Below, piece after piece: positions 2,987 to 18,987 of a stretch of 20,237 bases of DNA (positions within the stretch are counted from its first letter, which is position 1; every line of letters begins with the position of its first letter). A program made the translations under genes and the position numbers. Under the pieces are notes generated by a model that was given only the letters and a program-made list of their open reading frames with translations, did not search any database and had not been told where the DNA came from. The stretch is from positions 1 to 20,237 of IMG/VR virus record IMGVR_UViG_3300027733_000256; one strand, 5' to 3'. Source of the DNA: a virus.

Positions 2987-5900
2987 ATGTCAGATAGTTC
3001 ATTATCATTTGCTTCAACCTCGACGTTTAGAAACAACCTTTTAGGTAGAAATCTTGCTCCGTATACAGTACAGGGTGTTTTTACACCCCCAATAAGTAAC
3101 GTTGCATATGAAACAGTTTTAACTGTTACAAATGTAATAGATTCTCCTGATAACTTGATTGATGATGATGTCTTTGCTAACCAACTTTATCCATTAAACG
3201 AATATGGACCTGATGGTGGGTATAACACAACAATTACTTTTAATGGACCTCCATTACCTGTAGCGTCTAATAATGGTGAATATAGTCCTAATGATACTGT
3301 ATTAGATATTATAAATGAGGCGACGATAAATGCTCAATTTATTGAAAATAGATTTGGGCCAACGGGAGGATTTGAAGATTTATATTTTGTTGATAATATA
3401 CAGTTAAACGGTATTACAAATAATCCTTATTGGCAACCACCAAGTTTTTTACCATCATTTTATAGTCCGTATGAGATTTTAACAAATGATAATCCAAACG
3501 GTTCTAACGGTTTATTATCACAAGATTCATTCATCGCAAGAATTGGTGCTCAAAGATTACAATTTGCGTTTCAACAAAGAGTTGCTGCTGAAATTTTTCA
3601 AAACACTGTTGGACAAGTTAATTTAGCGTCATTACAAGACCCTTTTCAGGTTAGTTTAATTGTTACAGGTCAACAACCACTAATTTATAAGAATTGGAGA
3701 ATTACAGTTCCTGAGAACCCAATATTAAGAATTGTTGATTTGGCAACAAGATTGTCATCTGCTTATTGGCCTGTTTCACCCATACCTGGTGATTATTTTG
3801 AGATGGGGGGTGTTCCTCAAAATCAACAAACTTCATCAGCCCTAAATGTTGCCAATCAGTTAACAGGTGGATTTTTAGGGCCTGTGTTGAATATTACAAG
3901 AAGTTCTTCTGAAACATTTTTGGCTAACACAGGAAACGGACAAAGGTCGGCATTATTTGCAAATATTGATTACAATAGATATCAACCACCATACGATAAA
4001 AATTATGGAGGTATTTTGGGTGTTATTTCAGGTGTTGCCGATTTAATAACTAATTTAATAAATCCTGATAACGGAACACTTATTGGTGGTTATTATGTTG
4101 GTAGTAGAAACGCTGAACCTTCATCAATTACTTCACCACCAAACCAAGTACCTGTTAACATTTTTGGAGAACAAGTTCAAGCTCCTGTTTATGGACCGTC
4201 TGAATTAGGTATTTTATATGAAGGTAACCAAGAAGTTTTAAACTTTGGTTTGGCTTCTAAAACATACGATAATGGTGGTGGTATTGGTGGACAATTTGTA
4301 TGGGTTTCACCAAAATATAAAGATAATGCTGGTTATAGACCAACAGTAGGTGGTGGTGTGGGTGGTATTGATGAAAATTACAATGAAGTTAGTAGTGATT
4401 ATACTCGTAATGAGTCAACAAATATAACATTTAAGGGTAATTCTATTTTAGATAATACCCAAAGATTAATTGATTCGGCAGATAATGTTCAAGGTGTTTC
4501 AAGATTAAAACATGTCGGTAACGCTATAAATCAAGTCAGTAAAGTTTTCAATGACGGATACAAAGAAATGACTAAAGGTTCTAAAGTTGTATCTTATATT
4601 GATAACACAACAGGACAGGAAGCGGGCACTGAGTATTGTAGAGTATTTGCTAAAGATACTCCATATCTTATGTACAATGATTTACAAAAAACTGACGGTA
4701 TTACTACTTCAGGAAGAAGAAGTACATTTTCTGTATTAGATAATACTTTTAATTTAAACATTGCTCCGACAAAAAATCCTGGTTCAACAAACATTATTCA
4801 AGGTGGTGATGGTAGTGGGGGACATGTTAAAAAATACATGTTATCAATTGAAAATTTGGCATGGAAAACATCAAGTAGACCTGGTTTTACTTATGATGAC
4901 TTACCTGTTTGTGAAAGAGGACCAAATGGTGGTAGAATAATGTGGTTTCCACCATACAATTTAAAATTTAATGATACTTCAAATGCTACATGGAACCCAA
5001 CATCTTTTTTGGGTAGACCTGAGCCGATTTATACATATAAGGAGACTTCAAGAACAGGTGTTGTTTCATTTATGATAATTGTTGATAATCCTTCAGTTAC
5101 AAATCTTATAGTTGAACAACAACTTAGTGGAAAAGATAAAGGTAGAATTGATTCTGTATTAAATTCTTTCTTTGCGGGATGTGCTAAATTTGACATTTAT
5201 GAATTAGCTAAAAAATTCAATACGTTGAAGCCAAGTGATTTGATGACTTATCAAGAAATCATTAATAATCCAAGATTAACAAATGAAGAACTTGGTCAAA
5301 TTATTAAAGAGGTTCCTGTTGAAAACACAACAGCTGGAGGACAAGGAACGGGTACTGCCGCCAATGCTGATACGGTAAATGGTAGCGGACAAAATAATAC
5401 ACCCGACCTTATAGGTCCTTTTGAAAATCAGTTTTTGGGATTTGCGTTTTATTTTGATAACGATATTCCAGGACCAAGTAATAAAGAAACTACAGATGTT
5501 AATTATTATTCAACTTATACCGAATATACTAAATCAAGTAATATTGAAACATATGTTAGTAACTCTCACAATATTTTTGAGTCAACAAATATAAATTATA
5601 ACGTCCAAGAATTTTTTGATAATGTTATTAAAAATAACTTTGAAACAATTACTGAAGGGGAAAATTCATTTATTCAAAGAGCATATAAATTATTAAATGA
5701 TAATATTGCAAAATCTATCTCAATTGTAATGGAGGGTTCTGCTTCAGCAACTGCGACACCTGAATACAATAAAAAATTATCATTAAGAAGAATTGATTCA
5801 ATTAAAAAATACCTTTCAACCGATATTAATGGGGTTAGTTTAGCTAAATTTATTGAAGAAAAAAGGTTTGACATAAAAAGTGAGACAGGTTTTGGTGAAG

Positions 5901-8053
5901 AAATAGTTATACCTATGTATAGTATTGAGGTTGGAGCTAATAACCAAGAGTTTGGACGTAATGATTCGGGAACAGGATTAGATGTTGATTGTAAACAAGA
6001 TATTAAAGACAAAAGTGGTAATGTTACAGCTCAATCACAAGTTTACGCTGCAAATGCAATGGCTTGTAGAAGGGTTAAAATAAAAAATATTTCAGTTGAA
6101 CCAATGCCTGTGGAGACCGCAAACACTGACCCTGTAATAAATACTGTTGTTGATGAAACCCCAGTTGGTGCAACAACAACCGAAACTATTAAAGTTCCTT
6201 TAAGACCACCAGTACCGGCTCCAACTAAAACTATACAACAAAAATTAAAAGATAGTATTGGTAAACGAGTACTTAGAAATTTATTGACAGAATGTAATTA
6301 TTTTGAAGTTATTAAAGAAAATGTACCATTTTTATATGATTCATTTAAAGAAAGAATAAAGTATTTTAATCCTGCTTTCCACTCAATGACACCTGAAGGT
6401 CTTAACTCAAGATTAACATTTCTTAATCAATGTATGAGACCTGGTGAAACAATACCTGTGATTGGTACTGATGGAAAACCAAGAATTAATGATGCGGTTA
6501 ATACTTCTTTTGGGGCACCTCCTGTGTTGGTATTGAGAATTGGTGATTTTTATAATTGTAGAATAATACCTGATAGTGTGTCGTTTACATACGATTCCAC
6601 ACTTTTGGATTTAAATCCTGAAGGTATTGGAGTACAACCTATGTTGGTAAATGTTAGTATGAATTTTAAAATGATTGGTGGTCATGGTATTGCAAATCCT
6701 GTGGAACAATTACAAAATGCTCTTTCGTTTAACTATTATGCTAATACTGAAATTTACGATGAAAGGTCAGTTTGGACTGAAGATACTACGGCACTTGATA
6801 AACAAATCGCAGATGCGTTAGGTTTGGAACCTGAAGTGACCACACCAGTTAATAATGTGGAACCACAACCAACAAATGATGGGGGGTCTACAATAGGTGA
6901 AATAATAACAAATAAACCTGTTGAAGGTGGTAGTGAAGGTGAAATTAGTTATTTAAAAATAATGGATTCTATCTTAACAAATTCAAAAACATATTTCACG
7001 ACAGTTGTAAATAAACTTGAAGAGATTAATACTAAATACAACTATGGTATAGTCCAATTAGTTAACCAAGATAGAAATTTTAAAATTGGTCCATTAAATA
7101 CTACACAATCTCAAGATTGTAACATATATGGGTCACCATTTAATATTGAAGAGAAATTAAAACAACTATTCAATCAAGTTTATTCAGATATTGATAGTGG
7201 CTCAAACCCAATAATTGCTGAGTTGAGTAACTTAAATTTTTCACCTGACACTACAATTAAAATTGTTAAGAACAATATGAAAGTTTACATTTCAACAAAT
7301 GTAAACCAAACTATGGCAAGTGATATTACGAATGTCTTAACTGATATTTTAAGTTTTGAACAAACTTTTATTCAAAACATAAGAAAAGTTAATTTAGTTG
7401 TTAAACAACATGACGGTAAAAAAGACTCAACTAATTTACCTTTAATTTATACATTAACACCAACAACTGAAGTGAGTCAAACTAGTACAGGTGTTGGTGA
7501 CACATTAGTTGAATTGGATAAGGATTTAATTGCTTTTGGTGGACAAATGAAAAATTTCAACACATATTTAGAAAGAGAACAAATTATAACTAATTCTTAT
7601 GATAGTGTTGGTAAAATTCAAACTTTTAAGATAGTTTCCTCTAATATTATAAATAACTGTTTCTTTATGGTTATGGGTAGAATTCTTTCACAAGATTCAA
7701 AGAAAGATGAATTTATAGACGCTTGTTTAATAAATGTTTCAGAGGTTGATGAACCTTACAGTTTGGAAAATAAATTAAAAAAAATAGTTAATGATTTAGC
7801 GAAGGACTACTCAAAAGAAATAGAAAAAGACGAAGAATTTTTCCAAAATTTTAAAAAACAAAATGATTACAAAAACTATGTTGATGGTGTTGAAGAGTTG
7901 ATGTATAAATCAGGAAAAACAAGAAAATTCACATTTTCAACAGTTACACCGGCAGATGATGCAGTAAAAGAACAATTCCAACAATTATATACTACTGATG
8001 AAAATTTTGGTACTGTTGATACATATTTAGGAAAGGTTAAATTAACAAGTTAA
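2987..8053 (+). CDS. Giant tail/baseplate protein: two tube-initiator-like modules plus an OmpA-like domain
   Basis: This 1688-aa virion protein has three recognisable parts. Residues about 616-700 form one tail-tube-initiator-like module, with 'FLGRPEPIYTYKETSRTG' leading into a beta strand. Residues about 900-975 look like an OmpA C-terminal domain: a beta strand, Gly917 at the GHTD position, Asn928, Leu931-Ser932 and Arg935 of the 'N-x-x-LS-x-x-R' helix, then 'GFGEE' at the end. The Asp of GHTD, which contacts peptidoglycan in OmpA, is Ser920. Residues about 1180-1262 form a second tube-like module beginning 'RIGDFYNCRIIPDSV'. T4 uses two proteins of tube fold, gp48 and gp54, to start the tube, so this gene may combine both jobs; that is inference. 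The N-terminal 600 residues and C-terminal 400 are unrecognised; the latter include Lys/Glu-rich helices. The gene lies two bases before the gp53-like gene, suggesting translational coupling. Confidence 0.6.
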   Translation: MSDSSLSFASTSTFRNNLLGRNLAPYTVQGVFTPPISNVAYETVLTVTNVIDSPDNLIDDDVFANQLYPLNEYGPDGGYNTTITFNGPPLPVASNNGEYSPNDTVLDIINEATINAQFIENRFGPTGGFEDLYFVDNIQLNGITNNPYWQPPSFLPSFYSPYEILTNDNPNGSNGLLSQDSFIARIGAQRLQFAFQQRVAAEIFQNTVGQVNLASLQDPFQVSLIVTGQQPLIYKNWRITVPENPILRIVDLATRLSSAYWPVSPIPGDYFEMGGVPQNQQTSSALNVANQLTGGFLGPVLNITRSSSETFLANTGNGQRSALFANIDYNRYQPPYDKNYGGILGVISGVADLITNLINPDNGTLIGGYYVGSRNAEPSSITSPPNQVPVNIFGEQVQAPVYGPSELGILYEGNQEVLNFGLASKTYDNGGGIGGQFVWVSPKYKDNAGYRPTVGGGVGGIDENYNEVSSDYTRNESTNITFKGNSILDNTQRLIDSADNVQGVSRLKHVGNAINQVSKVFNDGYKEMTKGSKVVSYIDNTTGQEAGTEYCRVFAKDTPYLMYNDLQKTDGITTSGRRSTFSVLDNTFNLNIAPTKNPGSTNIIQGGDGSGGHVKKYMLSIENLAWKTSSRPGFTYDDLPVCERGPNGGRIMWFPPYNLKFNDTSNATWNPTSFLGRPEPIYTYKETSRTGVVSFMIIVDNPSVTNLIVEQQLSGKDKGRIDSVLNSFFAGCAKFDIYELAKKFNTLKPSDLMTYQEIINNPRLTNEELGQIIKEVPVENTTAGGQGTGTAANADTVNGSGQNNTPDLIGPFENQFLGFAFYFDNDIPGPSNKETTDVNYYSTYTEYTKSSNIETYVSNSHNIFESTNINYNVQEFFDNVIKNNFETITEGENSFIQRAYKLLNDNIAKSISIVMEGSASATATPEYNKKLSLRRIDSIKKYLSTDINGVSLAKFIEEKRFDIKSETGFGEEIVIPMYSIEVGANNQEFGRNDSGTGLDVDCKQDIKDKSGNVTAQSQVYAANAMACRRVKIKNISVEPMPVETANTDPVINTVVDETPVGATTTETIKVPLRPPVPAPTKTIQQKLKDSIGKRVLRNLLTECNYFEVIKENVPFLYDSFKERIKYFNPAFHSMTPEGLNSRLTFLNQCMRPGETIPVIGTDGKPRINDAVNTSFGAPPVLVLRIGDFYNCRIIPDSVSFTYDSTLLDLNPEGIGVQPMLVNVSMNFKMIGGHGIANPVEQLQNALSFNYYANTEIYDERSVWTEDTTALDKQIADALGLEPEVTTPVNNVEPQPTNDGGSTIGEIITNKPVEGGSEGEISYLKIMDSILTNSKTYFTTVVNKLEEINTKYNYGIVQLVNQDRNFKIGPLNTTQSQDCNIYGSPFNIEEKLKQLFNQVYSDIDSGSNPIIAELSNLNFSPDTTIKIVKNNMKVYISTNVNQTMASDITNVLTDILSFEQTFIQNIRKVNLVVKQHDGKKDSTNLPLIYTLTPTTEVSQTSTGVGDTLVELDKDLIAFGGQMKNFNTYLEREQIITNSYDSVGKIQTFKIVSSNIINNCFFMVMGRILSQDSKKDEFIDACLINVSEVDEPYSLENKLKKIVNDLAKDYSKEIEKDEEFFQNFKKQNDYKNYVDGVEELMYKSGKTRKFTFSTVTPADDAVKEQFQQLYTTDENFGTVDTYLGKVKLTS

Positions 8054-8055
8054 TT

Positions 8056-8382
8056 ATGGCGAACAAACAATTTTATAATAGATATAACAATTTCGACATA
8101 AATGGTAATCAAACTGTGGTTCCGTATATTACGTTACCTTCAAAAACAACTGATAAAAGATTCATTTATAAAATAAACCAAACAAGGTTAGATAAAATTT
8201 CACAACAATATTATAACTCACCTTTTTTTGGATGGTTAATTATGGTTGCAAATCCTGTTTATGGAGGACAAGAATGGAATATTGCTGACGGTTCAATATT
8301 GACTATTCCATATCCTTTGGTAACTTCTTTACAGGACTATAAAACGGCTTTAGACAACCACTTCTTCTATTATGGTAGATAA
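8056..8382 (+). CDS. LysM-like baseplate wedge protein (gp53-like)
   Basis: This 108-aa protein contains the pattern of a short LysM or tail-protein-X domain. Residues about 39-50 hold 'RLDKISQQYYN', then 'PFFGWLIMVANPV' with the Trp-Leu-Ile core, then 'DGSILTIPYP' near residues 77-86. T4 gp53, a baseplate wedge component next to the hub gene, carries a similar fold, though it is longer (about 196 aa). The gene starts two bases after the giant tail gene and its last 11 bases overlap the hub gene, so the three are probably translated together. It likely anchors in the wedge around the hub. A generic LysM tail protein is the main alternative. Confidence 0.65.
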   Translation: MANKQFYNRYNNFDINGNQTVVPYITLPSKTTDKRFIYKINQTRLDKISQQYYNSPFFGWLIMVANPVYGGQEWNIADGSILTIPYPLVTSLQDYKTALDNHFFYYGR

Positions 8383-11300
8383 TTCAGAAAGTATTTTAGT
8401 AGATTACGATTACAATAATATTATTGTTGTTGACCCAAATAAAGTGGTTGATACAAACGGTAATGTTAAAGAAAGATACGTTAAACAAGAAAATTTAGTA
8501 ATTTACGCTAACTTGGAATGCAATGTTTTACCAAGAACTAAATTGGCTGTTGGTTCATCTAATACAACTGATATTAAGACGGTTAGTATTGCGAGTATTA
8601 ATTTTTTAAAACCTGGTAATAAAGAGTTTATGGACATTGGTTACACTGATGAACTAACAGGTTTAAAAAAGGTAAATAAAAATGGTACTGAACAAAATAA
8701 CTCTAACAACTTACAACAAAGTGATAAAAATGATGATTATTATTTTAATCAGTCATCTAATTTAAATGGTAATGAAAGGGTTTCCGATAACGGGTTATTA
8801 GGGATTATTTCAATTAATATTAGACAAAACACATCATTTATGTCAACAATTACTGTTGAGTTAGAAGATGTTAGAGGGAAGGCGTTGTTTGAAGGTGGAA
8901 ATAGTTCACCATACGCTGCGTTTTTTAATTTACCATATCCATTGTTCAATTTAACAATTAAAGGATGGTATGGTAAAGCATTAAAATTACCATTAATGTT
9001 ACAAAACTTTACCTCAAGATATGATGGTAATAGTGGAAATTTTAAAATTACTTTAACTTTTTACACTTATAAATTTACTGTACTGAGTGAAATTTCTATG
9101 GGGGCAATACAAGCTACTCCCCATATGTATAAGTCAAATGTGAAAATACAAAAACTTAGTGGAGGTCCTAACTCAACAACACCAGTACAAGATGTTGTTT
9201 ATGAACAAGGTTATCAAAAAATCAAAGAATTATATAGTGAATATAAAACTAAAGGATTAATACCTGATGATTTTCCTGAAATTACAGTTGTACAACTTAA
9301 AAATAGAGTTGAAAACTTTATTAAAAATGTTTTAGATTCTTTCATAAAACAAAATTTGAATCCATTAAAAAACATTCAAGATTATGAAAATGAAATGATA
9401 ACCTATAAGAATAAAGTTTATTTTGGGAAATCAGTTATTGAACCAGGTTGGTTTGAAAAATACATGGACAAAGACAATTATTATGTTTTAAAAAATGGAG
9501 GTGTTAAAATTTATACGTTCAAAAAATTTTATGACACTTTAGAAAAACAAACAAATGCTAATAATAAATTAAAACAAATAATTGATGATGGTAATAAGTC
9601 ATTAAATTCAAATACAACACTTGGTGAAAATGGAACTTATACTATTAATAATGGTAATCCAAAATCTTCAGCAATTAGTTGTGATATTAATATTACTAAT
9701 TTTCAAAAAATTATTCAAGATGGAGACATTGATTTAAATGAGACATTTATTGTAAGAAATGGTGGAGGAGTGGCAACCGCAGAGCAACTTAGTGACTTAG
9801 AAAAACAACTTAAAACGACTTTAAACTCAGTAGGTTCAATCAATTTGTCAAATGGTGAAACAAACCCAAAGATACCTTTTTATTATTTTGAAGGTACTGG
9901 TAGTTTTATAGATAAAACTAACCAAATTTTAAAAACAGTTAAAATAAAAAAAGAAGAAATACAAACATCATTAACTGATGCTTTGTCTGAGAAACTACAA
10001 AGTAAAAATACAGGAATTGGATTTGTCCCAACAATAAGAAATGTTTTAGCCGTTATTTTTGCAAATGGTGAGGCATTCTTAAGATTAATGGAAGATGTTC
10101 ATTCTAAAGCTTGGGATTTAAGAGATGAGAAAGTAAGAAAAAGTGCTATTTTGGGAACCAAACCATCAAGTGATAATTTAAATCCTGGTGAAAATGGTAC
10201 TACCCCAATATACCCATGGCCACAATATATTGTTGAGACAACAGGTGAGAATGGTAGGGGTAAATATGAAATTAGATATCCTGGCGAATCTGAAGTTATT
10301 GACCAAACAAAAGGTTTTGAATTTCAGTATTGGCCTGAAGTTGAATTTTTAGAAGAATTTGTAAGAGCGTTTACTGAAACTACACAATCTAAAAATCAAA
10401 CACCACAAGATTTTTCTAATGAAGAAACTGACATTAAAAGAATTAGTTTTAACGCTATTGAATTTCCTGTGTCAAATGTTGTTTTTTCTAACAGAGAAGA
10501 AATAAAATTTTTCTATGAAATATTTGAAAGATTATTTTTTGTCACAAATTACTCAAGATTAAGTAGAGTAAATTTTGATACCGAGTTTTCGGATAAAATT
10601 ACATCATTACTTGCTGACGGAGAAAAAAATAATTTATTAGTTAGTTTATCTGATGATAATCCGTTTTTAATTCAAAAGTTACAAAATTATGGAATAAACT
10701 CTTCTAATTTTGTTTCAATTTTAAGACATTTTTCTAATGATGGTGAAGGACAATCGTGGCAAAATTATATAAGAGGTATTTTTAACACTTCTTATATTAA
10801 AAATTTATCTCAAAATTCAAACTTTGAATTTTTAAATAAAGCAATATTAGATGATTCGTCATCTAGTCCATTAATATCTTTAACTAATGAAATTGATTTA
10901 ATTGAGTTAGTTGGAAATTCTACTAAATCAAATGTGTTTGATTTTTTAGATATATACCCATTTACAAATTTAGATTGGGTAAAAAACAACTTGGCGTATG
11001 GAACATCAATACTAACAGTGGAAAGTAGTTTTGATACTCAAAAAATACTTACATTTAATACTGATAAAAAAATAATATCTAATTTTTCGGGTAATAATAG
11101 CTCACTTCAGAAAAGACCAATTACGAATTTTTTGTGGGGTACAAATCCAACACAACCACTAATAAGTAATACGACTAATTTATCTTCTTTTTATAATTCA
11201 AGAGTACCTGAAAATCAGTTAATTACTGAAGGGAATGTTTATTATAAAAATTACAGTGGATTTGTTACGAGTACTCAAACGACATCAATGTTTAATACAC

Positions 11301-14300
11301 CATTCTTTGTTAATTCAATACAAGAGGGTGTTAGTAATTTTAGAAATAATGACCCATATCCATACAAGGCCGCGGCTTTTTTGTTTTTGAATAGTTTACC
11401 TTTGGCGACATTAAGGGAAAAATATAAAACATATGAAAACGGAACAACAACCGATTTAGATTATATATTTGCAACAATTAAAAAATTTGGAGCTATACAT
11501 AAAGTACCTTATGCTTGGATATTAAAAATTGGTTCAATTTGGAGTAGATATAAAACTTATGTTGAAACAGGTACTGACTTTTTGAATACTTCTTGGAGTG
11601 ATTTTAATTATATATCAAACTATGACCCAATAACCAATTCACCTACAAAACAATATAGTTTAGTTGTTAATGGTGGTGCGATTGATATTATTTTAGAAAA
11701 AAATACTGTAATTGGAACAGATACTAGTTCATTAATTCATTCGGGATTTTACCCTAAATTAATTAATGATTTTAATGTCTTTTATCAAGGATTTCAAATA
11801 TATTCAACATATACTAATTCAGATATACAAAATGGATTTGCTTCAGGTGTTACTCTTAACTATGTTGATGGGGCAATTATAGATTACGCTGATGGTTTTG
11901 ATGAGAATAACCTTAATAGAAGTTTAAGAATAATTCCTTGGTCTGTTACAGTTAAATCATTAGATGATAAGTTTAATTATGTTATACCATCTCAAGGTTC
12001 ACCTATAAATCAAGTTAAATTTGAATGTTTTAGTAATGGACAAATAAAACAAGAAGTTTTAGGTAATCAATCAATGTATAATGGTTCAATTAGAACCTAT
12101 TGGTCATCACCTCAGTATGGTTATTTTGATATTTCTAAAATAACAAAACCAACACCTGAACAGTATTTAAAAAACATATTACTAACATCAAAAAATCAGG
12201 AAAACTTCTCAATTAATGGTGAAAATGGTGACTACGATAATATAAGTGAAATTTTTTCAGTATTTGAAAAAGATGTTCTTGATAGATTTGAAAATGAATT
12301 TTTAAATTTCTCAAGGTCGGTATACGATTATAAATCTAATATTGTTTCTGATGATGAAACAAATACTGAGTATTCTATGAAGAATTTTCAATTTTTCATG
12401 ATTGAAATGATGAAAGTACCATATAGTGGTGGTACAAACGGTACTCAAACAGTCGGAAACACTTCAAACGGTCAATTTATTCAAATAAATAAATTTTTGA
12501 TAGATTTTTTGCAATATGATGTGATATTCAAATATGGTAATCCGTCTAATTTTGATAAAAGATTGTTTTACACTTTTTCTAATTTACCAATAATAGAACC
12601 GTATATATGGGATTCTTATAGGGTATCAACACCAAACGCTTTACCTGTTAATGGGATTTCTGTTTCTTTATCACAATCCCAAACAAATTATCCTGATGCT
12701 TGGAAAGCTCTAAAGACATACGTTGGTTTTTCCAATATACCGGATTTAGTTTATGGTAATAATGGTTCATATATAACAGATTTCTTTATTGATTTAGATG
12801 TGGCTTTTAATCCATCAAATATTAAGAATTTTGCACCGATTATTAAAATTTATGCAACTCAAAAATTAAATCAATTTCAATTAAACACGATACCACCACC
12901 TGAACCACCTGTTTCGGTACCAAGTCAAATTGTTTCAGTAACAAAACTGTTTAGTGGTGACACAATTACAGTAAAACTAAAAAATAATGATAATATTGCA
13001 ACAATTAAAAATAATAATTCAGCGGTACTATATGAAAGTTTACCTGTAAGTTTAGCCCCAACAACAGCGGCAACACAGTCGTTTATAAATCAATCAATTA
13101 TTCAGTTTTACGGTTCCTTAGCAACTAACCCAACAGACCAACAATTTATAGTTCAGACAGTTTTTACTCCACAATACGAATACCCTCAGATACCAAATCC
13201 GTTGAGTAAAGAAGGTACTAAGTCATTTACTGAAAGTATGACTAACTATCTATTAGACTCCACGTCTTTTCAAGATAAAATTACAAATAATTTATTCACA
13301 AGATTAAGATTAGATTTACCTAAAGTTACAATTAGCAATTATAGGACACTAAATTCAAAATTAGATGGTGATTTAACTAAAAGAGATTTGTGGGAGTCTT
13401 TTAAGGCTACAAATGATAAATGGATTTCGGGTAATGATTTTAAAAATAAAACGTTATTTGAAGATGTTCTTTTTTTAGATAGAGCTTCACGAGATATTGG
13501 TAATAAAGTTATTATTGACATATACAAGTTAAAAGAAAGATTAACTAACATCAATCCTAAAACTAACATGTTAACATATGTTCAATCAATTATACAAGAA
13601 AACCACTTTGTTGTCATGAATGTACCATCATATATGAATTTTTATAATGTTCAAGATGCAACTAAAAATCCTGTACCAAAAATGGAAGGTGTTGGAGATT
13701 TTGCTAATAGCCTTTTTGGTACATTTATGAATGTTGATTATAGGAATTCATCTTCAAAGTTAGTATGTTTTTATGGTGGTAAACCAAGTGAACACTTGGC
13801 GGTAAATAATGTTGATTATAAATTTAAAGATGATGGTTTTGATTTGAAAAAAGATAATCCGTTAATTGAAAATCAAGTAGATAAAAAAGACTGGGATAAA
13901 TCAAATAAAGTTGTTGGTTTTAATATTGATATAGGTACTCAAAACCAACAAATTTTTCATGGATTTTCGGTTTCACAAGACGCTGGACTATCTACCGCAG
14001 AGAGTATTCAAATCCTTAATGATATGACCGCTCAATCGGGTAATAGACAGGCGGCAACACAAAACATAAGTTTATATAATTTATATAAAACTAGAAGTTA
14101 CAAGTGTACAGTTAATATGATGGGTAATGCTATGATACAACCAACGATGTACTTTAATTTAAGATATGTTCCTATGTTTAGTGGTCCTTATATGATTTTA
14201 TCAGTTGACCATACAATATCACAAGGTAGTTTTGAAACAGTTTTGACGGGTATAAGACAAACAATTTATTCATTACCGCAATTAGATGATTATTTACAAA

Positions 14301-15001
14301 CATTGAAAGTTAATTTATTACAATCTATTGTTGAAACAACACTGACTCAAGAAAGACAAAACGCCGCAACAGCTACGACTCAAACTTCAGGTAATGTACT
14401 TAATGAAACGGCTCAAATTGGGTCAACAATTACTGAACAATATGCGAATCAAATCTCATCAGGGATAAGTGAGAAATGTAAACCAAATGAAAAATATTCA
14501 TCATATACACCAATTGGTGAACCTAAAAACACTAAATTAAATTATTTGGAAGTATATGAAAAAATTATTCCATTAACTTCAAATCAAACTTTACAATATT
14601 TAATTTTTTCAACGTTTTATATTGCATCAGGTAAAAATTATGGTTTTGATACCTATGAAAATAATTTTGCAGGTATTACTATTAACCAATATTGGGGAAA
14701 TACTGGAGACGCTTATTTTAGCCCTGATAGGAAATTTTATTGTTCAGTTAACGATGTTCCCTACGCTAAATTCTCAACTATTGAAAAATCTATTGAGTTT
14801 TTAATTGCTAAATGGTCAGGAAGAATTGGAACATTGACGGTTACTGATGAAAATTTGGCGAAGTTTTGGGTAATTAATGCTAATGCTAGTGAAGCGAGAA
14901 AAGAAAATGTTTGGACTAGTTTATCTCAGGAGAATAAAGGTATAGTAATTAATGATTTTAAAGAAGCTATTCAGTATTTCAAAGCAATAGAATTACAATA
15001 A
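8372..15001 (+). CDS. Giant baseplate hub protein (gp27-like) with C-terminal glucosaminidase-like domain
   Basis: This 2209-aa protein is far longer than T4 gp27 (about 390 aa). Residues about 144-252 carry a pattern I associate with hub proteins of this phage type: 'DVRGKALFE', 'FFNLPYPLFNLTIKGWYGK', then 'RYDGNSGNF'. Residues about 1848-1965 resemble the hub beta-barrel seen in gp27 and gpD: 'KTRSYKCTVNMMGNAMIQP', 'PMFSGPYMILSVDHTISQG' and a final Arg-containing strand. The roughly 1600 residues between are unrecognised; a Pro-rich hinge 'PPPEPPVSVP' sits near 1507. Residues about 2037-2207 look like a peptidoglycan glucosaminidase: Asn2097-Asn2098-Phe-Ala-Gly-Ile matches the NN-x-x-GI motif, followed by 'AKFSTIEKSIEFLIAKW'. 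The aligned catalytic Glu appears to be Ala2085 (I-A-S-G), so activity is doubtful. The hub would sit at the baseplate centre and touch the cell wall on infection. The start overlaps the gp53-like gene by 11 bases. Confidence 0.65.
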   Translation: MVDNSESILVDYDYNNIIVVDPNKVVDTNGNVKERYVKQENLVIYANLECNVLPRTKLAVGSSNTTDIKTVSIASINFLKPGNKEFMDIGYTDELTGLKKVNKNGTEQNNSNNLQQSDKNDDYYFNQSSNLNGNERVSDNGLLGIISINIRQNTSFMSTITVELEDVRGKALFEGGNSSPYAAFFNLPYPLFNLTIKGWYGKALKLPLMLQNFTSRYDGNSGNFKITLTFYTYKFTVLSEISMGAIQATPHMYKSNVKIQKLSGGPNSTTPVQDVVYEQGYQKIKELYSEYKTKGLIPDDFPEITVVQLKNRVENFIKNVLDSFIKQNLNPLKNIQDYENEMITYKNKVYFGKSVIEPGWFEKYMDKDNYYVLKNGGVKIYTFKKFYDTLEKQTNANNKLKQIIDDGNKSLNSNTTLGENGTYTINNGNPKSSAISCDINITNFQKIIQDGDIDLNETFIVRNGGGVATAEQLSDLEKQLKTTLNSVGSINLSNGETNPKIPFYYFEGTGSFIDKTNQILKTVKIKKEEIQTSLTDALSEKLQSKNTGIGFVPTIRNVLAVIFANGEAFLRLMEDVHSKAWDLRDEKVRKSAILGTKPSSDNLNPGENGTTPIYPWPQYIVETTGENGRGKYEIRYPGESEVIDQTKGFEFQYWPEVEFLEEFVRAFTETTQSKNQTPQDFSNEETDIKRISFNAIEFPVSNVVFSNREEIKFFYEIFERLFFVTNYSRLSRVNFDTEFSDKITSLLADGEKNNLLVSLSDDNPFLIQKLQNYGINSSNFVSILRHFSNDGEGQSWQNYIRGIFNTSYIKNLSQNSNFEFLNKAILDDSSSSPLISLTNEIDLIELVGNSTKSNVFDFLDIYPFTNLDWVKNNLAYGTSILTVESSFDTQKILTFNTDKKIISNFSGNNSSLQKRPITNFLWGTNPTQPLISNTTNLSSFYNSRVPENQLITEGNVYYKNYSGFVTSTQTTSMFNTPFFVNSIQEGVSNFRNNDPYPYKAAAFLFLNSLPLATLREKYKTYENGTTTDLDYIFATIKKFGAIHKVPYAWILKIGSIWSRYKTYVETGTDFLNTSWSDFNYISNYDPITNSPTKQYSLVVNGGAIDIILEKNTVIGTDTSSLIHSGFYPKLINDFNVFYQGFQIYSTYTNSDIQNGFASGVTLNYVDGAIIDYADGFDENNLNRSLRIIPWSVTVKSLDDKFNYVIPSQGSPINQVKFECFSNGQIKQEVLGNQSMYNGSIRTYWSSPQYGYFDISKITKPTPEQYLKNILLTSKNQENFSINGENGDYDNISEIFSVFEKDVLDRFENEFLNFSRSVYDYKSNIVSDDETNTEYSMKNFQFFMIEMMKVPYSGGTNGTQTVGNTSNGQFIQINKFLIDFLQYDVIFKYGNPSNFDKRLFYTFSNLPIIEPYIWDSYRVSTPNALPVNGISVSLSQSQTNYPDAWKALKTYVGFSNIPDLVYGNNGSYITDFFIDLDVAFNPSNIKNFAPIIKIYATQKLNQFQLNTIPPPEPPVSVPSQIVSVTKLFSGDTITVKLKNNDNIATIKNNNSAVLYESLPVSLAPTTAATQSFINQSIIQFYGSLATNPTDQQFIVQTVFTPQYEYPQIPNPLSKEGTKSFTESMTNYLLDSTSFQDKITNNLFTRLRLDLPKVTISNYRTLNSKLDGDLTKRDLWESFKATNDKWISGNDFKNKTLFEDVLFLDRASRDIGNKVIIDIYKLKERLTNINPKTNMLTYVQSIIQENHFVVMNVPSYMNFYNVQDATKNPVPKMEGVGDFANSLFGTFMNVDYRNSSSKLVCFYGGKPSEHLAVNNVDYKFKDDGFDLKKDNPLIENQVDKKDWDKSNKVVGFNIDIGTQNQQIFHGFSVSQDAGLSTAESIQILNDMTAQSGNRQAATQNISLYNLYKTRSYKCTVNMMGNAMIQPTMYFNLRYVPMFSGPYMILSVDHTISQGSFETVLTGIRQTIYSLPQLDDYLQTLKVNLLQSIVETTLTQERQNAATATTQTSGNVLNETAQIGSTITEQYANQISSGISEKCKPNEKYSSYTPIGEPKNTKLNYLEVYEKIIPLTSNQTLQYLIFSTFYIASGKNYGFDTYENNFAGITINQYWGNTGDAYFSPDRKFYCSVNDVPYAKFSTIEKSIEFLIAKWSGRIGTLTVTDENLAKFWVINANASEARKENVWTSLSQENKGIVINDFKEAIQYFKAIELQ

Positions 15002-15943: not shown

Positions 15944-15946
15944 TTT

Positions 15947-15969
15947 AACGGTCTTAGGACCGTTTTTTT
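15947..15969 (+). terminator. Intrinsic terminator closing the tail gene block
   Basis: AACGGTC (15947-15953) pairs perfectly with GACCGTT (15958-15964) around a TTAG loop, followed by a T-run to 15969. It starts 4 bases after the stop codon at 15943, the usual position for a rho-independent terminator. Confidence 0.85.
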
Positions 15970-15980
15970 ATCTAACGTAT

Positions 15981-16009
15981 TTGACTATACTACGGCTGAC
16001 ACTTATACT
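15981..16009 (+). promoter_or_regulatory. Sigma70-like promoter for the gp32 gene
   Basis: TTGACT at 15981-15986 and TATACT at 16004-16009 are separated by exactly 17 bases, close to the classical -35/-10 pair. The expected transcript start is near 16016, about 18 bases before the ATG. It lies just after the terminator, which fits a separate transcription unit. Bacteroidota primary sigma factors normally prefer a TAnnTTTG -7 box, so recognition may be by another factor. Confidence 0.5.
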
Positions 16010-16033
16010 TAGTAAACAATTAAATTAACACAT

Positions 16034-16882
16034 ATGGCGACAAACAATTCTCTGGACGCTGTTCTTGCACAGTACGAACAAGCGACAAAAGGTGGTTCAT
16101 CTTCTACCTCAATGACACAAGATGAAAGAATGAAAAAATACTTTGCAGCTATCCTTAAGGATAACGAAAAGCAAGGTCAAAAAAGGTTACGTATTCTCCC
16201 TACAAAAGACGGCTCATCACCTTTCAAAGAGGTATGGTACCACGAAGTACAGATTGATGGAAAGTGGAATAAAATTTACGACCCTGGAAAAAACGACAAT
16301 GAACGTTCACCTTTAACAGAAGTTTATGAAGAACTTATGTCAACAGGTAAAGAGTCGGACAAAGAACTTGCTAAACAATATAAACCAAGAAAGTTTTATA
16401 TTCTTAAAGTTGTTGACCGTGATAATGAACAAGATGGAGTTAAGTTTTGGAGATTCAAACACAACTACAAAAACGAAGGGATTTTGGATAAAATTATTCC
16501 AATTTTTAGAGCTAAAGGTGATATTACTGACCCTGAAAAAGGAAGAGATATTATTTTGGAATTAACCAAAGCAAAAACTCCAAAAGGTGCAACATACACG
16601 GTAATTCAAACCATTATGTATGATGACCCAATACCAGTACATGAAGAAAAAACAACTTCTGATTCATGGGTTAACGATGCGTTAACTTGGTCAGATGTTT
16701 ATTCTAAAAAACCTGTTGAATATTTGGAAGCGATTGCAAGAGGTGAAGTACCTAGATGGGATTCTAACGCAGGTAAATATGCTTACGGAAACTCTGACGA
16801 ATCTCTTGTTTCTTTTGGTGGAAACACACCAATAGTTGACCCACAAGCTGGCAACGAACCTGATGGTGATTTACCATTCTAA
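16034..16882 (+). CDS. 32: Single-stranded DNA-binding protein, gp32-like
   Basis: This 282-aa protein matches T4 gp32 in length (301 aa) and layout: a polar N-terminus, a core with 'KRLRILPTKDGSSPFKEVWYH' (residues 50-70) corresponding to the gp32 OB-fold entry, and an acidic C-terminal tail. It coats ssDNA at forks and during recombination and interacts with UvsX and the fork proteins. T4 gp32 binds zinc through one His and three Cys; here His70 is kept but the protein has no Cys at all. The zinc loop reads 'IYDPGKNDNERSPLTEV' (81-97), so the fold must be stable without zinc. The last residues are Asp-Gly-Asp-Leu-Pro-Phe, like the acidic tip of bacterial SSB rather than the T4 tail. It has its own promoter and terminator, as expected for a highly made protein. 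Confidence 0.85.
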   Translation: MATNNSLDAVLAQYEQATKGGSSSTSMTQDERMKKYFAAILKDNEKQGQKRLRILPTKDGSSPFKEVWYHEVQIDGKWNKIYDPGKNDNERSPLTEVYEELMSTGKESDKELAKQYKPRKFYILKVVDRDNEQDGVKFWRFKHNYKNEGILDKIIPIFRAKGDITDPEKGRDIILELTKAKTPKGATYTVIQTIMYDDPIPVHEEKTTSDSWVNDALTWSDVYSKKPVEYLEAIARGEVPRWDSNAGKYAYGNSDESLVSFGGNTPIVDPQAGNEPDGDLPF

Positions 16883-16964: not shown

Positions 16965-17954
16965 ATGGCTATTAAGAAAAAAGAAATTGGATTAGATTCA
17001 ATTAAATCCAAATTTTCATCAAAAACAAAATATAAACCTGAAAGTTACTACAATTGTGGAGATGCTTTCATGGGGGCATGTGGACTACCAGGTCCTGTTA
17101 TGGGTGGTATAAATATGTTTTTAGGACACTCTAACTCATCTAAAACAACTGCAATGATATTGGCAGCAGCTGACGCTCAGAAAAAAGGACATTTACCTGT
17201 TTTCATCATTACTGAGAAAAAATGGTCTTGGACTCACGCAGTTGAATTAGGATTATCCGCATCTCAAAACTCTGAAGGTGAATGGGATGGTGATTTTATT
17301 TTTAACGATAGTTTTGACTATATTGAACAAGCAACTGATTTTATTAATGAGGTATTAGACGCTCAAGAAAAGGGTGACTTACCATATAATTTATTATTTT
17401 TGTGGGATTCAGTTGGAAGTATTCCTTGTAAAATGACATTTGAAGGTAAAGGTGGAAAAATGCACAATGCCTCCACACTTGCTGATAAGATTGGTATGGG
17501 AATACACTCAAGAATTAGTAAATCTAAAAAAGAAGAGTATCCGTATTATAATACAATGGTAGTTGTTAACCAACCTTGGGTTGATTTACCTGATAATCCA
17601 TTTGGACAACCTGAAATCAAGGCTAAAGGTGGTGAGGCATTATGGTTGGCTTCAGCATTAGTATTCTTATTTGGAAATCAAAAGAAAGCGGGTATTAATC
17701 ATATTACCGCAACAAAAAATAATAGAACTATTCGTTACGCAATCAGAACCAAAATCTCTATCTTGAAAAACCACGTAAATGGTTTAGGTTATAATGATGG
17801 TAAGATTATTGCGGTACCACAGGGTTATATTTCAGACACTAAAGAGGCATTGGAGAGCTACAAGAAAGAATATTCACAGTATTGGAACGCTGTTTTAACA
17901 GGTACTGGTGAAATTCTTCTTGATGAAGAAGTTATTGAACATATTGAAGACTAG
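16965..17954 (+). CDS. uvsX: UvsX-like RecA-family recombinase
   Basis: This 329-aa protein has the RecA/UvsX core. A variant Walker A, 'GHSNSSKTT' (residues 54-62, Lys60), lacks the usual Gly before Lys, as does T4 UvsX with its 'SFKS' form. A candidate catalytic Glu84 sits in 'ITEKKW', Walker B is 'LLFLWDS' ending with Asp148-Ser149, and an L2-like region reads 'KAKGGEALWLASALVFLF'. It catalyses ATP-dependent strand exchange on gp32-coated ssDNA in recombination-dependent replication and repair. It follows gp32 across a terminator. The last helix is acidic. T4 UvsX is 391 aa, so this is shorter at the C-terminal end. No Shine-Dalgarno sequence precedes the ATG. The GTG-started nuclease begins 19 bases after its stop. 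Confidence 0.85.
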   Translation: MAIKKKEIGLDSIKSKFSSKTKYKPESYYNCGDAFMGACGLPGPVMGGINMFLGHSNSSKTTAMILAAADAQKKGHLPVFIITEKKWSWTHAVELGLSASQNSEGEWDGDFIFNDSFDYIEQATDFINEVLDAQEKGDLPYNLLFLWDSVGSIPCKMTFEGKGGKMHNASTLADKIGMGIHSRISKSKKEEYPYYNTMVVVNQPWVDLPDNPFGQPEIKAKGGEALWLASALVFLFGNQKKAGINHITATKNNRTIRYAIRTKISILKNHVNGLGYNDGKIIAVPQGYISDTKEALESYKKEYSQYWNAVLTGTGEILLDEEVIEHIED

Positions 17955-17973: not shown

Positions 17974-18987
17974 GTGATTAAAACACTGTTAATTGACGGT
18001 AACAATTTATTAAAAATCGGTTTTCATGGGGTTAAAGATTTCTTTCATGAAGGGAAACACGTTGGGGGTATTTGGCATTTTCTGAATACTACCCGACGTT
18101 TTATTGAAGAACAAAATTTTGATAAAGTTGTTGTTTTTTGGGATGGTGAAGATAGTTCCTCTGCCCGAAAATTAATTTACCCTCAATACAAAGAAAATCG
18201 TAAAATTTATAAAGAAGAGTTTAAGGAACAATCTTTTGCGGAACAAAAACAACGAGTTAAACAATATCTTGAAGAGATGTTTGTCAGACAGGTGGATATT
18301 GATAATAATGAAGCTGATGATTTAATTGCTTATTACTGTAAGATATCAACAAATGAAACTATAACCATTTTTTCAGGTGATAGGGACTTGACACAACTTA
18401 TTAGTGATAATGTCTCAATCTATTCCCCAAATACAAAATTAACATACAAGAATGGTGATTTTATTAGGTTATATGAAGCTGAAATCCCTCATTATAATGT
18501 TATAACTTACAAAGTGTTATCTGGTGATAAATCTGATAATATTGATGGTATCTATTTTTTGGGGGAAAAAACTTTTATTAAATTATTTCCCGAAATACTT
18601 GAAAAACCGACATCTGTTTCCGATATTTTAACAAGAGCGGAAATGTTATTCGCTGAAGACAAAGAAAACAAAGTATTACAAAATTTACTTACAGGTAAAA
18701 CCAAATCAGGTATCTATGGAAATGAATTTTTTGAGATTAACACAAAAATCGTGGATTTATCTAATCCGTTAATCACAGAAGAAGGAAAAGAAATTGTTGA
18801 ACTTTATTATAAAGAAACATTAGACCCCGAAGGTAGAGGTTACAGGAATCTTATTCGCATGATGATGGAAGACGGATTTTTTAAATTTTTACCAAAAGGA
18901 GACGAAGCTTGGGTTAACTTTGTTAAACCATTTTTAAAACTAACAAGAAAAGAAAAGAAAAAATATCAAACAAAAAATAAATTATGA
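17974..18987 (+). CDS. rnh: T4 RNase H-like 5'-3' nuclease (FEN family)
   Basis: This 337-aa protein has the full set of FEN-family acidic residues: Asp8 in 'IDGNN', Asp57 in 'VFWDG', Glu113/Asp115/Asp116 in 'NEADDLIAYY', Asp136 and Asp138 in 'SGDRDLTQLI', and Asp185/Asp188 in 'GDKSDNI'. The last lies in the helix-3-turn-helix that grips the DNA duplex ('GDKSDNIDGIYFLGEKT'). Arg66, in the 'RKLIYPQYKENR' helix, is the arch side. T4 RNase H (305 aa) removes RNA primers and adjacent DNA from lagging-strand fragments. The start is GTG at 17974, chosen because the next residues I-K-T-L-L-I-D begin the conserved first strand. The C-terminal tail is Lys-rich. Its stop overlaps the next ATG by ATGA, so the pair is translationally coupled. 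Confidence 0.88.
   Translation: MIKTLLIDGNNLLKIGFHGVKDFFHEGKHVGGIWHFLNTTRRFIEEQNFDKVVVFWDGEDSSSARKLIYPQYKENRKIYKEEFKEQSFAEQKQRVKQYLEEMFVRQVDIDNNEADDLIAYYCKISTNETITIFSGDRDLTQLISDNVSIYSPNTKLTYKNGDFIRLYEAEIPHYNVITYKVLSGDKSDNIDGIYFLGEKTFIKLFPEILEKPTSVSDILTRAEMLFAEDKENKVLQNLLTGKTKSGIYGNEFFEINTKIVDLSNPLITEEGKEIVELYYKETLDPEGRGYRNLIRMMMEDGFFKFLPKGDEAWVNFVKPFLKLTRKEKKKYQTKNKL

Follow-up and report, generated by a model that had tools for sequence, protein, structure and literature searches.

The gp32 of phage T4, a single-stranded DNA (ssDNA)-binding protein, has His64, Cys77, Cys87 and Cys90 as its zinc ligands, and its C-terminal tail, the A-domain, docks gp61, gp59 and RNase H, as described in PMC3012046. 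For the single-stranded DNA-binding protein (SSB) of Escherichia coli, PMC7145534 describes an acidic C-terminal tip to which at least 17 partners are recruited, RecO, PriA and chi among them. The DNA considered here is IMG/VR virus record IMGVR_UViG_3300027733_000256, a virus record of 20,237 bases analyzed over its full length (the window). Its gene at 16034..16882 (+ strand, ATG to TAA, 282 amino acids) is assigned to a gp32-type ssDNA-binding protein by matches to PF08804 and phrog_1192. An original prediction, made from the sequence alone, had described a gp32 homologue free of cysteine and ending in DGDLPF, and had proposed that this tail docks onto host partners of SSB; it also held the loss of a metal site together with the gain of a host-type tail to be unusual, and suggested a structure prediction and a comparison of tails and zinc residues among homologues. 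The cysteine count is indeed zero over all 282 residues, and DGDLPF forms the last six residues of the translated open reading frame (ORF).

A gp32 protein with an SSB-like tip

Homology to gp32 is demonstrated by a Pfam search with the window ORF (PF08804, E 3.7e-13, with 50.4 bits where the cut-off is 26.8) and by phrog_1192 (E 5.9e-14); the PF08804 cut-off was also exceeded in 6/6 contigs of the clade described below. The gp32 family was the sole Pfam match at E <= 0.1, and PF00436, the OB domain of bacterial SSB, was not matched by the window protein. An AlphaFold2 (AF2) model was built on alignment A7, which holds 65 rows of relatives from four clades, exo-T-even rows included. Its mean predicted local distance difference test score (pLDDT) is 67, with ~80 in the core, and over ~190 residues that core matches RB69 gp32 (Z 14.0) and T4 gp32 (Z 13.9), the best structural match outside gp32 reaching a Z of only 4.2. 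An earlier model, built on a shallow alignment of 32 close relatives, reached a mean pLDDT of only 56 and was poor. The A7 profile matches the RB69 gp32 structure 2a1k (E 2.2e-26); sequence searches of the PDB with the single protein or a narrow alignment gave chance-level matches only. A scan across bacterial genome contigs found no gp32. Homology and modelled fold together identify the protein, a gp32 homologue in the original prediction, as the phage's own putative gp32, an OB-fold ssDNA coat. With T4 and RB69 gp32 it shares the core fold, a gene position close to recombination and replication genes, and an acidic C-terminal tail carried by a flexible linker; it differs in lacking the zinc cysteines and in its end, which is LDDLLNDL in T4 and DxDLPF here.

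Four IMG/VR scans with clade seeds returned 281 loci, giving 282 with the window. A complete ORF is present in 277 of these, and the five lost to contig ends were excluded from tail counts. Because repeat fetches of some contigs remain in the set, the 149 distinct proteins are the fairer count. Every one of them ends in [DE][LM]PF (277/277 complete loci, 149/149 distinct proteins), as ELPF in 65, DLPF in 64, DMPF in 17 and EMPF in three. The same ending is found in 0/566 other ORFs of at least 100 amino acids at the same loci. On G001, a sister contig, one of 912 ORFs ends this way, namely gp32. The likeness of the tip is not a matter of chance, being seen in all 149 clade proteins and in none of those 566 other ORFs.

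The possibility that the tip is a functionless inheritance, or resembles SSB by accident, has in its favor that all members descend from one clade. The clade is compact, the lowest identity between any two of the complete loci in the comparison being 69%. A functionless or accidental tip would predict neither the absence of this end from neighboring ORFs nor what is seen within and beside the tip itself. At the conserved residues of the tip (16862..16879, + strand, at the very C-terminus) synonymous codons vary, with four for Pro, two for Phe and six for Leu among those of the first 152 loci that are complete (149). The adjoining linker (~residues 244–276, 16763..16861, + strand) varies in column conservation and carries indels in a non-redundant alignment of 32 sequences, and model confidence is low at ~254–268. 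A conserved element, DPQ, lies within it 12–14 residues from the C-terminus (16838..16846, + strand; D in 32/32, P in 28/32, Q in 30/32). We strongly disfavor a functionless or accidental tip and consider it highly improbable. By these comparisons the tip is a selected, clade-wide and clade-specific feature resembling the C-terminal tip of SSB (SSB-Ct).

The tails of other gp32 clades are different, each in its own way. Immutovirus-type proteins end in KFD[DE]LF followed by one or two further residues (79/79 complete, from 80 loci), a second clade has FDDLFN-like tails (79 complete of 80 loci), and a third has KLA/RLA-acidic tails (80/80). A PF ending is demonstrably absent from these samples, occurring in 0/238 complete metagenomic homologues (three other clades, 240 loci) and in 0/23 homologues from named records (17 + 6). 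Variable tails without DxDxPF had been named in advance as evidence against the docking proposal; they do occur between gp32 clades, and within the tip clade the tails are uniform. A 27-row tree made with the last 40 residues removed, and without meg_L183 (shortened by start choice) and exo_L519 (Lak), unites the tip clade with support 100/99. In the midpoint-rooted drawing, for which the program warns of long branches, it stands beside the Immutovirus/megaphage group. No scan reached intermediates between the tip clade and other gp32 clades. Phe282 of the window protein is aligned with a Phe in 65/65 rows of A7, and because of this shared register the tip may be an ancestral acidic-Phe tail that was re-tuned, not one acquired as a unit. 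A search of open-access papers gave no account of an SSB-Ct-like gp32 tail, most subscription journals being outside the search.

Possible host or phage partners for the tip

The clade tip and bacterial SSB-Ct are alike in having acidic residues followed by Leu-Pro-Phe at the exact C-terminus, with a variable linker before them. The DLPF that ends the window protein also ends 74/80 SSBs in a Bacteroidota sample (GLPF 5/80, DIEF 1/80); this sample was drawn from genome loci with a Bacteroidota-like SSB probe, which biases it toward close matches, and it includes by title a Chlorobiota bin, a Saccharospirillaceae bin and bins labelled only as uncultured bacterium. The clade tip differs in sitting on a gp32 core instead of an SSB OB domain, and in tolerating Glu at position -4 and Met at -3. 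The tail likeness put forward in the original prediction is supported as a conserved, clade-specific resemblance to Bacteroidota SSB tips.

Our preferred explanation, in which we place about as much belief as doubt, is that the gp32 tail is a selected SSB-Ct-type docking peptide that recruits host SSB partners. The tail would have turned SSB-Ct-type by combining a flexible linker, acidic residues and Leu/Met-Pro-Phe at a free C-terminus. The Leu-Pro-Phe of the tip would insert into the SSB-binding pocket of a host protein such as PriA, RecO, RecQ, RecJ or a primase type, and to host replication-restart and recombination factors, phage DNA coated with gp32 would then look like DNA coated with host SSB. 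Such factors could replace the T4 helicase loader gp59 and UvsY, the T4 recombination mediator (PMC7913777). Both proteins are found in T4, and each was detected in 0/6 clade contigs, none of which is proven complete. Clade contigs also gave no SSB gene (0/8), and PriA, UDG and RecQ were each found in 0/9 records.

A strong rival is a partner encoded by the phage itself. The tip may dock the phage's own replisome and recombination proteins (the DnaB-type helicase, DnaG-like primase, polymerase or UvsX), its likeness to SSB-Ct being convergence on an acidic-aromatic peptide; we give this somewhat less weight than host docking, at perhaps a third of the total. The clade encodes a DnaB-type helicase, a B-family polymerase and, in 6/6 contigs, a DNAG_N-like primase. 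The tail is fixed within each gp32 clade and differs between them, which co-evolution with phage partners would lead one to expect, and the Phe register noted above, with the re-tuned ancestral tail that it allows, is also favorable to this explanation. T7 gp2.5 uses its C-terminal Phe. Phage precedents for tails that bind phage proteins are the T4 A-domain, with its docking of gp61, gp59 and RNase H (PMC3012046), and gp2.5, a phage SSB of another type whose acidic tail contacts the T7 replisome, as described in PMC5686142; the T7 tail partners are phage proteins. What this rival accounts for less well is that acidic-Leu-Pro-Phe-COOH matches the host SSB tip and not any other phage gp32 tail seen, and that Immutovirus, with DnaB and UvsX-type genes of its own, keeps KFDDLFN. 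The two kinds of partner are compatible and not exclusive.

Several observations weigh against docking onto host proteins. Strict conservation of the tip is equally expected with a phage-encoded partner. Immutovirus, for which the isolation host was Flavobacterium, likewise gave neither gp59 nor UvsY, yet its gp32 ends in KFDDLFN; therefore neither host phylum nor loss of these partners forces the tip. The absences of gp59 and UvsY are themselves soft because no clade contig is proven complete. Glu at -4 occurs in 68/149 distinct clade proteins and Met at -3 in 20/149, each against 0/80 of the sampled SSBs, a sample skewed to close matches by its probe, and this hints at a somewhat different binding pocket. 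The host assignment, taken up below, is indirect.

A third explanation is that the role of the tip is mainly internal, as a lid on the ssDNA cleft of DNA-free protein, with no outside partner needed. Acidic and aromatic residues are what such a decoy requires; an invariant Pro-Phe as the very last residues is not, and we think this explanation improbable.

Docking onto host SSB partners can be taken a step further: these phages may disguise gp32-coated DNA as host-SSB-coated DNA, the tip replacing gp59 and UvsY in that it enlists host factors of the PriA/RecO type as loaders of the phage helicase and recombinase, in competition with host SSB. We offer this fuller scheme tentatively and regard it as less likely than not. 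More generally, gp32 tails are hubs that control the access of replication and recombination proteins to phage DNA. With one fixed SSB-Ct-type tail in a large uncultured clade and others elsewhere, tail identity is a possible predictor of partner choice, and recruitment of host SSB partners by a T4-type phage becomes directly accessible to peptide-binding assays.

The zinc site

The loop IYDPGKNDNERSPL (residues 81–94, 16274..16315, + strand) aligns with the Straboviridae region that carries the three zinc cysteines, and is itself free of Cys. The His position is kept, at residue 70 of the window protein and as His in most aligned homologues. Cysteine is absent from 147/149 distinct clade proteins, and the remaining two have one each at ~199–201, outside the loop. 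Inspection by eye showed no signature of an alternative metal site.

This condition is widespread. The three-Cys set is missing from aligned gp32s of cyanophages, pelagiphages, Methylophilales and Stenotrophomonas phages, Ackermannviridae, Immutovirus and megaphage-type relatives. Among metagenomic proteins there is no Cys in 80/80 of the Immutovirus type and in 76/80 and 78/80 of two other sets. An alignment of 29 rows, of which 28 were readable and one was incomplete, shows the T4 pattern of His plus three Cys in 5/28, all Straboviridae, with SRB7757 a variant. Six further named rows contribute the pattern in 3/6, all three Herelleviridae. On the 27-row tree, which lacks Herelleviridae, the zinc-bearing set corresponds to two changes. 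By these alignments a zinc-less gp32 is common among gp32 relatives and the rule in neighboring clades as well as in cyanophages, pelagiphages and other T4-like phages. The comparison of tails and zinc residues that had been suggested thus finds clade-specific tails and a widespread absence of Cys. Zinc loss was rejected as a remarkable event, the His being kept in the tip clade and the Cys missing across many clades; cyanophage, pelagiphage, Methylophilales, Stenotrophomonas, Immutovirus and megaphage-type gp32s are equally without these Cys, and the zinc loss is not supported as unusual. As for its pairing with tail gain in the original prediction, none of these zinc-less gp32s has the SSB-like tip, and therefore the absence of the metal site and the type of tail are not linked.

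Within Herelleviridae the zinc pattern is present in 3/4 rows (Lysinibacillus, Goe9 and Exiguobacterium phages) and absent from Goe26. These gp32s (L659 601–1587, L661 574–1482, L658 601–1410) show His and Cys...Cys-x2-Cys, and have Lys-containing ends. Their pattern suggests a zinc site older or more widespread than Straboviridae.

Phage lineage, host and gene neighborhood

Among the closest known counterparts is Flavobacterium phage immuto (Immutovirus). Its ssDNA-binding protein has 29% identity to the window gp32 over 147 aligned positions and is also without Cys, the order gp32–UvsX–5'-3' exonuclease is the same, and the gp32 end, KFDDLFN, differs. In the window a UvsX/RecA-like recombinase follows gp32 at 16965..17954 (+ strand; phrog_97, E 5e-13; 36% identity to the Immutovirus recombinase), and a putative 5'-3' exonuclease of the FEN/T4 RNase H type lies at 17974..18987 (+ strand; PF02739, E 1.6e-31).

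The sister contig G001, a 293,850-base contig of L033 (pieces L167–L181), carries T4-type gp23, portal and S77 protease genes, with ribonucleotide reductase and a DnaB-type helicase near gp32. Top matches of its gp23 are the uncultured megaphage LR756508, RM378, a Microcystis phage and immuto, and its identity is 29% to RM378, 36% to immuto and 26% to T4; these values come from an alignment and describe the sister contig, not the window. RM378 (NC_004735, L504–L506), an isolate usually tied to Far-T4, gave no detectable gp32 homologue. RM378 was isolated on Rhodothermus and immuto on Flavobacterium. A Bacteroidetes host has been predicted for a marine Far-T4 virus (PMC7198788), and a Far-T4 study describes the host predictions that it made as spurious and inconsistent (PMC4360716). 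Shine-Dalgarno motifs are at background in G001 (6/206 starts against 7.0 expected; 12/286 against 9.3 in a second count), in immuto-type loci (5/196 against 7.8) and in RM378 (13/109 against 11.9), in contrast to the Microcystis phage (14/34 against 4.5); the window alone has them at 1/10 starts. Comparisons of UvsX and gp23 yielded the nearest cultured relatives and no proof of host. The missing Shine-Dalgarno signal and the published Bacteroidetes prediction speak for Bacteroidota as the probable host of this large uncultured group of T4-like phages.

G001 also encodes 25 tRNA genes and a predicted transfer-messenger RNA, Hsp70 (E 2e-256), a ClpB-like AAA protein, PPK2, a poly-A polymerase, superoxide dismutase and a match to the Tad6 Thoeris inhibitor.

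Ahead of the gp32 gene, the interval 15944–16033 holds a terminator-like hairpin (15947..15964, + strand; two found in the region against 0.8 expected) and a promoter-like TTGACT-17-TATACT (15981..16009, + strand). The promoter scan alone did no better than shuffles (four found against 4.6 expected); TTGAC is kept in 16/16 aligned loci. An Rfam search of the window gave no match. Further upstream, two very large ORFs (2987–8053 and 8372–15001; 1688 and 2209 amino acids) lie among baseplate-type genes.
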